DNA of 51,065 nucleotides, from assembly GCF_900070205.1 (NCBI RefSeq), contig NZ_FAOO01000014.1, positions 1-51,065 on the forward strand, read 5' to 3'. Made by a program: the position numbers and the translations under genes. The stretch's first letter is position 1, and every line of letters starts with the position of its first letter. Source of the DNA: Candidatus Thermokryptus mobilis (GTDB lineage: Bacteria; Bacteroidota; Ignavibacteria; Kryptoniales; Kryptoniaceae). Of the stretch, positions 14,376 through 18,581 are shown piece after piece. The notes below the pieces were generated by a model. That model had not been told where the DNA came from, did not search any database, and was given only the letters and a program-made list of their open reading frames with translations.

Positions 14376-14406
14376 TTGTTTTTGAAGATTTAAAATGTTA
14401 AATTTG
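14376..14406 (+). promoter_or_regulatory. Bacteroidota-type promoter for tRNA-Thr
   Basis: TTG at 14376-14378, a 20-base spacer, then TAAATTTG at 14399-14406, a perfect match to TAnnTTTG. The tRNA begins seven bases later, so transcription would start almost at its first base. Confidence 0.55.
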
Positions 14407-14412
14407 TAAAAA

Positions 14413-14484
14413 GCTGGCGTAGCTCAGCGGTAGAGCAGCTGATTCGTAATCAGCAGGGCGTGGGTTCAAATCCCACCGCCAGCT
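14413..14484 (+). tRNA. tRNA-Thr (CGT)
   Basis: Acceptor stem GCTGGCG pairs with CGCCAGC. The anticodon arm CTGATTCGTAATCAG gives anticodon CGT, decoding ACG (Thr). The T arm contains GGTTCAAATCC and the discriminator is T. CCA is not encoded. It is separated from tRNA-Arg by a foreign-looking gene on the opposite strand. Confidence 0.96.
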
Positions 14485-14581
14485 CTAATGCTTATCTGTT
14501 TTATTCCCTGTATACTGAGAAGACGGAGGAAATGTATAATGCCAATCGTTTGCTTTTCTACGGAAGGGGAATGGTATAATA

Positions 14582-15760
14582 CTAATTTATCATCCGATGC
14601 ATCAACGCTATGTAATCCTTTAAATGTCTTATTATTAAAAAGCGGTGCTTTACTGTTTCCTTGGCATAAAATCCCATCCTATCTCTTAGCTCCTTGTTAG
14701 CAAGTAGCTGCCTTGCCCTATGAGCCGCGCCCTCCGACGAATCAACCAAAAATCCATTTATACCATCCAATATCTGTCTCTTTATGCCCCCAACATTGCT
14801 ACCTATCACAGGTTTTCCTTTCCACATCGCTTCCGAAACAACTAAACCAAAACCTTCCCTTATAGACTTCTGAAATACTACATATGCAGAGCGTTGAAAG
14901 GCATTTACCTCAATGTGACTGTTAGGGGGGAGATTCAACACAAAAACATCTTTATCATCTGAAGTGATGTTTAGGACTTCCCTGTAAACCTCCTCCCCCT
15001 CTGGGTCATCGCTGGCATAAGAGCCCACCAGCACAAGCTGACACGGGTATTTGTTCTTTACCAGCTTGTAAGCCTGATACACACCTACATGCTCAAATTC
15101 TCCAAGGGTGTGGTCTATACCGAGTACCCTTGATAAACTCCTTAAAAAGTTTATAGTATATTCATAGGTGTGAAAACCTATCAAATCAGCTCCTAAAAGA
15201 CCTTCCAGAAGTTCCCTTCTCCAAGGTAGCTGAGCGAAAACCTCAGGTGGCGGAAAGGGTATATGCAGGAAAAAACCCACCTTTGCCTCAGGAAGAACAT
15301 TCCTTATCATACCTGGCAGTAGCATAAGATGGTAGTCATGTATCCATATGTAAATTTCTTTATCGGTTTGAGTGTTTTCCAGAATAGCTTCTAAGAATAT
15401 CTTGTTTACTTCTAAATAGCTTTCCCATGCGGTCTTCTCATAAGTTGTGAGCGCAGGCATGCTGTGAAAGAGTGGCCACAAAGTTCTGTTGCAAAAGCCA
15501 TTGTAGAACTTTTCCATAAGCTTTTCTGGTACATAAACCGGCACATAGTTGTGCTCTTGGAAAAGATGAGCATTTATCCTCTGCATTTCTCTTTTTGGTA
15601 GGCTAGTACCAGGCCAACCTATCCATAGCCAGGAGGATAAACTTGCTTTTTTAATAAATGTCTCTATGGCCGATACCAAGCCACCGGGGCTTTTCTGAAA
15701 CTCTATAGGGTCAATACTTTTAATGCTTATGGGAAGTCTGTTGGAAACTATTATAAGCAA
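14582..15760 (-). CDS. Chimeric glycosyltransferase: OtsA N-terminal half joined to TreT C-terminal half
   Basis: The first half is trehalose-6-phosphate synthase (GT20): LIIVSNRLPISI, GGLVSAIE, WIGWPG, NRTLWPLFH, WIHDYHLMLLP, GFFLHIPFPPPEVF and GFHTYEY, ending at RVLGIDHTLGEFE. From about 15091 it switches to the C-terminal domain of trehalose glycosyltransferring synthase TreT (GT4): QLVLVGS, SDDPEGEEVY, VNAFQR, SIREGFGLVVSEAMWKGKPV and RHLKDY. Missing are the last part of the OtsA N-domain, the whole OtsA donor domain and the first strand of the TreT donor domain, which normally carries the Arg/Lys pair of SRFDPWK. An active enzyme is therefore doubtful. The frame is open further to 15835, into tRNA-Arg, but the OtsA similarity begins at the TTG at 15760 and no ATG or ribosome site is present. 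Two sampled 60-base lines are about half G+C, against a third in a flanking line. Confidence 0.8.
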   Translation of the reverse strand: MLIIVSNRLPISIKSIDPIEFQKSPGGLVSAIETFIKKASLSSWLWIGWPGTSLPKREMQRINAHLFQEHNYVPVYVPEKLMEKFYNGFCNRTLWPLFHSMPALTTYEKTAWESYLEVNKIFLEAILENTQTDKEIYIWIHDYHLMLLPGMIRNVLPEAKVGFFLHIPFPPPEVFAQLPWRRELLEGLLGADLIGFHTYEYTINFLRSLSRVLGIDHTLGEFEHVGVYQAYKLVKNKYPCQLVLVGSYASDDPEGEEVYREVLNITSDDKDVFVLNLPPNSHIEVNAFQRSAYVVFQKSIREGFGLVVSEAMWKGKPVIGSNVGGIKRQILDGINGFLVDSSEGAAHRARQLLANKELRDRMGFYAKETVKHRFLIIRHLKDYIALMHRMIN

Positions 15761-15767
15761 TTTAAAC

Positions 15768-15799
15768 TTGCAAATTTCTTTTAAAAATTTTATATTTTT
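15768..15799 (+). promoter_or_regulatory. Candidate promoter of tRNA-Arg
   Basis: TTG at 15768-15770, 20 bases, then TATATTTTT from 15791, the same TATATTTT form as before tRNA-His and the 33517 operon. It lies just outside the OtsA-like segment, so the native tRNA promoter appears to have survived the insertion. Confidence 0.45.
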
Positions 15800-15808
15800 A
15801 TTGCTTGC

Positions 15809-15881
<73 letters not shown>

Positions 15882-15884
15882 CTC

Positions 15885-18581
15885 TTATTTTTTATTCTCC
15901 TTCATCTTCTCTTCAAGTCGTGATATTCTCTCCTTTACTAAATGTTGATATTGCTGAGGATAATAAACAAGAACCCTGTTTAAAATATCTATCGCCTTTT
16001 TATATTCTCCCATCATCTCATATAAATTCACAAGAATTACATACGGATTATACTCTCCATAAATGTTCATCGGCTCACGATTTATCTGTTCCAAAGCTAT
16101 CGGCTCTATCTCCTTGGCTATCTTCATAAATTTCTCCTTTGCCCCAACGATATCATACAAACGAGCAACATCATATCTAAGTCTATAATCCATTGGTAAA
16201 ACATCATTTGGAATTTTGCTTTCCATTCTATCAAGCACTTCAATAACTTTTGCGGTATCGCGCCCGTTTTCGTAATAATAAATTGCGAGTTTCAGAAAAG
16301 CATTCCTATAATTCTGCATCAAATTCCTATCTGTCTCAAAGAAATGAACATTTGGATTGTTTAAATTCCTAAATTTAAAGCCATATCTTGGTTCACGATA
16401 GAAACCTTCCGGTTCATTAAATAAACATTCTTTCATAACTTCTTCCTCCACAAATGTCGGTGAGCCCTTTGGGTTTTTAAACGGAACAACTCTATAAGCA
16501 AGTCCTTCCATACGCAGATACTCATCAAGCCCAATGAAATTGTCAGGCGAAACTGTGACAGCAAAATATATCGGTCTTTCCCACTTATTTGTCTCAATTA
16601 TATCACGAACCATAATATCCTGAACTCTTATTGCTTTTATCTCCCCAAACTGAATAGTATTGGGCATTCGGAATGTAATTTTACCCTGATTTATAATTGA
16701 AGTATCTTTTATCCCGAATTTTTCATAAACTTCCCTCGGCACAGGTATTGAAACATCACGCGGTTCCCACTGGACAAGACCCAGTCGCCTGATTATGTTA
16801 TCGCTCAAACTAATTGGAACTTTCTTTGCCCCGTGTGGTTCTTCATGCTTTAACTGAAGTATATACCAATCAGTGTTCAGCAAGCTTAAATTTACAACCC
16901 TTATATCTGTCCTGATGCCCTCAACCTCTTGTAGATACCAAAGCGGGAAGGTATCATTATCTCCGTTAGTGAACAGAATCGCGTCTTTCTCGCAACTCTG
17001 AAGCAAATTATAAGAATAATCCCAGGGGACATAATTTCCACTTCTATCGTGGTCATCCCAGTTTTGAATTGCCATATTCACGGGAACAACAAAAATTGCA
17101 ACCGCAAGAACTCCAACAGAATAAATTTTCTTCATCTTCTCCGATTGAATTAAATCGCTTATTAACTCAATCAAACCAGCTGTGCCGATGCCGATCCAAA
17201 TTGAAAAAGCGAAAAAAGAACCAGCAAAAACATAATCCCTTTCCCTTGGTTGTGGTTCAGGCATATTAAGATAAACCGCAAGACCAATACCTGTCACAAG
17301 AAACAAAGCAAGATATGATAAAAACATCTTCCAATCTTTTCTGTAATGATAATATAATCCAAAAATCCCCAATAAAAGTGGCAGTGCGAAATATCTGTTT
17401 GGGAATTCGCTCGGTTTTCCCCAACCGCTTTCGGACTTCAAGAAGACAGCAGGCGCATCTTGAACATCACCAGCACGACCAACGAAGTTCCAGAAGAAAT
17501 ATCTAAAAAACATATGATTTAACTGATATCTCAAAAAGAAATCCCAATCACTTTGATATTTCTGATAATTTTCCTGATGCGTTGGTTCCTGACTCCAACG
17601 CCTTTTAAATGGTGAAGGTTGTTCACCATATTGCTCCCTTTCAAGATATTTGACAAATTTAACAAGATTATCAGGAGCGTTCTCATTTATAGCAGGCTTA
17701 TCATTTGCCCTTATTATTATCAACGCATAAGTCGTATACCCGAGAAAAACTAAAAAAATACCCATCAAAAAGTTGAATAAAATTCTTTGCTTATTCCTAT
17801 ACGAATAATAAATCCCGTATGAAACGACAAGTGCAATAACCGCAGGAACAGCTGGCATATCATCAAGCATTGAAGGTATCCAAAAAATTATAACCTTATA
17901 GATCAGAAAGAATATACCGACAGCGATTATCCCCATCACTGTAAAACTTTTAATATCAACCTTTTCCCTAAACCTAAAATATACAAGCATCGCCAGCGTG
18001 AAAATCGTAAGTATGCTCAAAAGATGAACACCGATTGACAAACCGATAACATAAGCTATCAAAAGAATCAACCTGTCGCTTTCAATTTTATCTGCCTTTT
18101 CAAACCAGACCATACCAAGCCATATTGCAAAGCTCATCAAAAACAAGCTCGTTGCATAAACTTCCGCTTCAACCGCGTTGAACCAAAAAGTATCACTGAA
18201 AGAAAGCGCCAAAGCTCCAACCACAGGTGCGCCATAAACGATAAGCTTATCAACGAAATCTTGTGGATTTGCCTTCCATCTTAATATCAATCTAACCGTG
18301 ATAAGATAAAGGAACATAACCGTTAAAGCACTTACAAAAGCGCTTACCAAATTAACCCTTTTAGCGATGTCTTCAGCTATAGGCAATAAAGTTGCAATTC
18401 TGCCAAGAATTATAAAAAATGGCGCCCCAGGTGGATGTGGAACCCCAAGCGTATAACTTACAGCGATGAATTCACCACAATCCCAAAAAGGAACGCTCGG
18501 TTGAACAGTTAAAGCAAAAACTACTAACGAAATCAAAAACAAAACAAAAGCGACAACGTGATTTAACTTTAACTTTCCCAT
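15885..18581 (-). CDS. DUF2723 membrane protein (GT117/TMEM260-like) with C-terminal TPR
   Basis: 898 residues. The N-terminal block TVQPSVPFWDCGEFIAVSYTLGVPHPPGAPFF is the signature of DUF2723, with the Asp-Cys-Gly-Glu that corresponds to the GT-C acidic site. About twelve hydrophobic helices follow to residue 500. A soluble domain from about 505 has GDNDTFPLWYLQEVEGIRTD, also strongly conserved. Residues 755-890 are helical and TPR-like. The animal relative TMEM260 is a protein O-mannosyltransferase, and Bacteroidota members are thought to glycosylate secreted proteins; that role is inferred. It would fit the type IX-secreted proteins coded elsewhere here. It overlaps hemW by 13 bases, suggesting coupled translation. 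Confidence 0.93.
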   Translation of the reverse strand: MGKLKLNHVVAFVLFLISLVVFALTVQPSVPFWDCGEFIAVSYTLGVPHPPGAPFFIILGRIATLLPIAEDIAKRVNLVSAFVSALTVMFLYLITVRLILRWKANPQDFVDKLIVYGAPVVGALALSFSDTFWFNAVEAEVYATSLFLMSFAIWLGMVWFEKADKIESDRLILLIAYVIGLSIGVHLLSILTIFTLAMLVYFRFREKVDIKSFTVMGIIAVGIFFLIYKVIIFWIPSMLDDMPAVPAVIALVVSYGIYYSYRNKQRILFNFLMGIFLVFLGYTTYALIIIRANDKPAINENAPDNLVKFVKYLEREQYGEQPSPFKRRWSQEPTHQENYQKYQSDWDFFLRYQLNHMFFRYFFWNFVGRAGDVQDAPAVFLKSESGWGKPSEFPNRYFALPLLLGIFGLYYHYRKDWKMFLSYLALFLVTGIGLAVYLNMPEPQPRERDYVFAGSFFAFSIWIGIGTAGLIELISDLIQSEKMKKIYSVGVLAVAIFVVPVNMAIQNWDDHDRSGNYVPWDYSYNLLQSCEKDAILFTNGDNDTFPLWYLQEVEGIRTDIRVVNLSLLNTDWYILQLKHEEPHGAKKVPISLSDNIIRRLGLVQWEPRDVSIPVPREVYEKFGIKDTSIINQGKITFRMPNTIQFGEIKAIRVQDIMVRDIIETNKWERPIYFAVTVSPDNFIGLDEYLRMEGLAYRVVPFKNPKGSPTFVEEEVMKECLFNEPEGFYREPRYGFKFRNLNNPNVHFFETDRNLMQNYRNAFLKLAIYYYENGRDTAKVIEVLDRMESKIPNDVLPMDYRLRYDVARLYDIVGAKEKFMKIAKEIEPIALEQINREPMNIYGEYNPYVILVNLYEMMGEYKKAIDILNRVLVYYPQQYQHLVKERISRLEEKMKENKK

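Follow-up and report, generated by a model that had tools for sequence, protein, structure and literature searches.

An open reading frame of Candidatus Thermokryptus mobilis joins parts of two trehalose enzymes in frame. It lies on the reverse strand at 14582..15760 of the window, by which we mean the whole stretch of 51,065 nucleotides that was analysed, and encodes 392 amino acids from a TTG start to a TAG stop at 14582–14584. This hybrid follows OtsA (GT20) as far as about residue 221 and continues in frame as TreT (GT4) from residue 226. We regard it as probably a recent, laterally acquired chimeric remnant, made by deletion and most likely inactive.

The first-pass annotation had named these two parents, placed their join at 15091 and held that the frame was kept across it, and all of this was borne out. 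Pfam Glyco_transf_20 (PF00982) matched hybrid residues 3–218 (E 2.9e-69, profile positions 4–224 of 473) and Glycos_transf_1 (PF00534) matched residues 226–368 (E 3e-22, profile positions 32–171 of 172). Since the latter match begins only at profile position 32, the hybrid lacks the first part of that domain. NCBIfam agreed on both parents, with OtsA at residues 2–224 and TreT at residues 215–389, and the OtsA and TreT matches were far above chance. When the organism's own genome was searched with intact Thermodesulfobacterium proteins, similarity to OtsAB stopped at 15095 and similarity to TreT started at 15091. The 392 codons from the TTG at 15760 contain no internal stop, and the frame stays open as far as a TTG at 15835, a codon within tRNA-Arg; the longest stop-free runs in the five other frames across this stretch are just 49–62 codons.

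The OtsA-derived half comprises residues 1–221 (15098..15760, reverse strand) and is a GT20 acceptor-side domain by its PF00982 match, its identity to relatives and the pLDDT of its model. It matches the homologues L035, L036, L037, L038 and L040 at 54–61%, and shares the whole acceptor-side domain of the OtsAB-type synthases of Thermodesulfobacteria and Hydrogenobaculum, with the motifs SNRLP, GGL, FYNGF..LWPLFH, HDYH and LHIPFP all intact. The join, residues 222–225 (FEHV; 15086..15097, reverse strand), was delimited by pairwise alignments to both parents and by the ends of similarity, and these four residues are assignable with certainty to neither parent. Residues 226–392 (14585..15085, reverse strand) belong to a GT4 donor domain and align to TreT residues 233–399, at 72–74% with L040, L037 and L155. 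The E-x7-E donor motif, EGFGLVVSE at hybrid residues 302–310, and the C-terminal helix are common to the hybrid and TreT.

Both parental enzymes are truncated. A full-length GT20 domain has about 470 positions, of which the hybrid holds only the N-terminal part given above, and its TIGR02400 score is 241.9 bits against a cut-off of 564.85. Similarity to the OtsA of L040 ends at residue 223 of that protein, before the SVDRLDYTKG segment. The OtsA sequence stops ahead of the interdomain linker, which is also lost, and the hybrid lacks the OtsA donor domain and OtsB. The donor-site residues Arg262 and Lys267 of Escherichia coli OtsA, which touch the ribose and the phosphates of the nucleotide (PMC3441724), have no counterpart, and the glucose 6-phosphate ligand Arg300 (PMC1769515) falls in the deleted part. 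On the TreT side the entire acceptor domain is missing, and the N-terminal domain PF21269, present in intact TreT, had no Pfam match in the hybrid. In a model of intact TreT, beta-1 of the donor domain spans residues 218–222, Arg224 and Lys229 lie in the next loop and a helix follows at 231–245. The hybrid keeps TreT only from Gly233, so beta-1 and the equivalents of both basic residues are lost, as had been supposed from the DNA. An active GT-B enzyme has two complete Rossmann-like domains; here the second is without its first strand. The initial description of an acceptor domain swapped onto a foreign donor domain therefore holds for the OtsA acceptor domain, which is intact, and not for the truncated TreT donor domain, so this is no clean swap. 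Engineered GT-B chimeras likewise place the acceptor-side domain of one enzyme before the donor-side sequence of another, but they unite whole domains (PMC10937113), whereas the cut in the hybrid lies inside the donor domain. A truncated TPS copy of M. loti is also a shortened, partly lateral TPS gene (PMC1769515); in the hybrid, unlike that copy, the truncation continues in frame into TreT.

The fold was modelled with AlphaFold2. Mean pLDDT per block was about 87 for hybrid residues 1–210 and about 45 for residues 231–390, compared with about 78 for the equivalent donor domain of intact TreT, the two models resting on shallow alignments that differ in kind (13 rows for the hybrid, 6 for intact TreT). 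The alignment used for the hybrid was set A2; set A1, with 80 rows, was dropped because the halves were mixed and misaligned. This contrast in pLDDT supports, without proving, an unfolded TreT half. Among the matches listed by Foldseek for the hybrid model, all were GT20-type synthases, with an rmsd of about 22 and a TM score of about 0.5, and the poor overall superposition would be consistent with a single folded half. Most likely, only the OtsA half of the product folds, and transferase activity is absent, since the Arg and Lys that contact the nucleotide phosphates and an intact donor domain are both missing.

The hybrid is not a family. Full-length homologues in many genomes, which would mark an established architecture, were sought among relatives, across the class and in contigs, plasmids and viral contigs, and were not found. 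The architecture was present in 0 of 60 relatives, and when 391 genomes of the class were searched, the window alone matched over the full length, the other matches at that threshold covering the OtsA half only. It was likewise absent from 59 genomes around its closest relative (G391) and, overall, from the other genomes among the about 450 searched with the hybrid protein, six congeners included, in sets that may lack the records nearest to the window's own genome, strains of its species among them. A scan of genome contigs returned 80 loci, all of them single-half or two-piece matches; no plasmid record reached 80% coverage of the hybrid by tblastn, and no viral contig carried it. Seven loci (L049, L058, L067, L074, L089, L096 and L110) with apparent matches to residues 2–392 were rejected as full-length hybrids: each consists of two separate tblastn matches, with treT preceding otsA, and these are therefore neighbouring genes. 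An apparent one-piece match of L035 to residues 2–264 was rejected as an ordinary OtsAB with a weak extension.

Gene order in other thermophiles points to the origin of the hybrid. In Thermodesulfobacteriaceae and Thermodesulfatator (L036, L037, L039 and L040), otsAB and treT lie on one strand, and the points equivalent to the join are about 2.83 kb apart. ORF lists place a small gene between otsAB and treT in L036, L037 and L040, which in L040 is DUF5752 by Pfam. The DUF5752 gene lies directly upstream of treT at L036:10162–10782, L037:2214–2837, L040:8158–8787 and L155:2706–3323, identified by Pfam in L040 and L155, and its product appears to be a conserved partner of treT in thermophile trehalose operons. 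The neighbouring otsA and treT genes expected by the first-pass annotation are thus near each other and on the same strand but not directly adjacent, as otsB and the DUF5752 gene stand between them. The proposed in-frame deletion needs the same amendment: a single deletion of about 2.8 kb would yield the hybrid, and it would have removed otsB and the DUF5752 gene as well. Judging from operon structure and phylogeny, the hybrid would be the remnant of a laterally acquired thermophile otsAB–DUF5752–treT operon, in which one in-frame deletion, in the donor or after arrival, joined otsA codon ~221 to treT codon ~233, taking out the OtsA donor domain, OtsB, DUF5752, the TreT acceptor domain and beta-1 of the TreT donor domain.

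In maximum-likelihood trees, the OtsA half was sister to L035 and the TreT half to L155, both from the uncultured genome G391, with supports of 89/80 and 91/91 and terminal branches of 0.21 and 0.20. With G391 as the sister of each half and with like branch lengths, one donor lineage suffices, and the similar terminal branches indicate that neither half evolved unusually fast. In G391, the closest relative found, one contig carries otsAB and another DUF5752-treT, and we therefore infer their adjacency in the actual donor from the Thermodesulfobacteria. The organism's own genome, which is 97.5% complete, yielded nothing further of OtsA, OtsB or the front of TreT when searched with intact Thermodesulfobacterium OtsAB and TreT. 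Three features of a pseudogene formed by in-frame deletion are found: the remaining parts are absent, the parental order is known and the gene is a singleton.

A full-length otsAB is present at an unrelated locus in the congener G001 (L139:6879–9092). The hybrid was considered as a decayed form of this native gene and the idea was rejected, because the locus differs, the sequences are only 47–49% alike and the G001 gene falls outside the clade of the hybrid. With otsAB in G001 and none in the genome of the hybrid, trehalose synthesis by the OtsAB route is patchy in the genus.

The hybrid is flanked by two host genes on the forward strand, tRNA-Thr (CGT; 14413..14485) at one edge and tRNA-Arg (TCT; 15809..15882) at the other. 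In five congeners, the 12861–14267 gene and tRNA-Thr lead not to the hybrid but to further host genes, of which the first is an amidase, and tRNA-Arg adjoins the 15885–18581 gene in the congener G002 too. Similarity to host sequence ends within about 25 nt of tRNA-Thr and, on the tRNA-Arg side, at 15806. The amidase is encoded elsewhere in the own genome (G000), mid-contig on C19 (L145:3375–4424), beside a LacI-type regulator and a TonB-receptor-like cluster, and this displacement makes a rearrangement at tRNA-Thr visible from both sides. On the side of tRNA-Arg that corresponds to the hybrid, G002 carries a CRISPR array (L133:3693–4770) in which GTGAGCATTGAACCAGTGTGGAATTTAAAC is repeated about 17 times, and Cas-like genes lie downstream of it. 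The tRNA-Arg spot looks like a recurrent site of insertion or rearrangement in the genus. Integration at the 3' end of a tRNA gene with duplication of an att site was rejected for want of a direct repeat. The GC3 values of the hybrid, 0.40 and 0.45, exceed the 0.30–0.34 of neighbouring genes in the window, as would be expected of a recent arrival.

The same setting gives rise to the main rival explanation, in which the organism has no such gene and pieces of a foreign otsAB–treT operon were linked to each other and to host DNA, either by the assembler or by template switching in whole-genome amplification. The hybrid sits exactly on a junction of the tRNA-Thr side with the tRNA-Arg side that is found in this assembly and in none of the congeners, its composition is foreign and it is a singleton, and these points speak for an artefact. 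Against this, no direct or inverted repeat of at least 14 nt was found within 14400–15900, the reading frame runs unbroken through the join, the two halves share one lineage of origin and the assembly contains none of the lost operon parts. In addition, the break between tRNA-Thr and the amidase is seen independently in the middle of C19, so a real rearrangement is likely. We consider an artefact rather unlikely.

If the deletion chimera is real, its expression is in question. No Shine-Dalgarno-like sequence was found in the 48 nt between the TTG at 15760 and tRNA-Arg, whereas a neighbouring gene has GGGAGG, and consensus matching revealed no promoter directed at the hybrid in this space. Most of this sole intergenic space upstream of the hybrid is occupied by a divergent promoter-like site, TTGCAA-17-TATATT (15768..15796, forward strand), identified by consensus match only (6 such sites found, 3.4 expected), which plausibly belongs to tRNA-Arg. 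Relatives start with Met one or two codons farther upstream; the hybrid carries AAA or TTT at those positions. Taken together, these features make translation of the hybrid doubtful, and, with neither a recognisable promoter nor a Shine-Dalgarno site, the hybrid is probably a pseudogene so young that its frame has yet to decay.

Considering the intact frame, a kept protein was weighed as well, in which the folded OtsA domain would serve as a sugar-phosphate binding or regulatory protein and the TreT piece would be a passenger. All motifs of the N-terminal half are intact, that half was modelled with high confidence, and of the columns conserved in at least 90% of relatives 0 of 36 are changed in it. 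In the TreT half 5 of 57 such columns are changed, mostly conservatively, and sister TreT proteins show 4–6 changes. A run of 392 codons free of stops, frameshifts and excess change would also be the pattern of a retained protein. However, an unbroken frame is just as well accounted for by recent origin: for a fusion that was neutral from its beginning, the age is bounded roughly at 0.015–0.025 substitutions per site, far below the 20–25% divergence from congeners at the DNA level, and the frame thus needs no selection. There is also no relative in which selection could show, the expression signals are missing and the glucose 6-phosphate ligand Arg300 (PMC1769515) is in the lost part, which makes a kept protein very unlikely. 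A natural GT-B domain-swap glycosyltransferase, with OtsA acceptor specificity and a shortened donor domain of TreT specificity, is very unlikely, as beta-1 and the Arg/Lys are missing from the donor domain, which is not modelled as folded, unlike that of intact TreT, and the interdomain linker is lost, even though engineered GT-B chimeras can be active (PMC10937113) and EGFGLVVSE is intact. That the hybrid is still functional, kept for binding or transferring sugar in a new way, is likewise very unlikely.

As a chimeric remnant, the hybrid carries little weight for trehalose biology unless its product is made and active. Automated annotation could nevertheless label it a trehalose synthase in a genome where otsA, otsB and treT were otherwise not found. 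Hybrid proteins are expected to arise from in-frame deletions between neighbouring genes, but such chimeras are seldom caught while their parents and operon order are still recognisable. The hybrid of Ca. T. mobilis would be a clear case of such a chimera, derived from a laterally acquired operon and seen in a young state.
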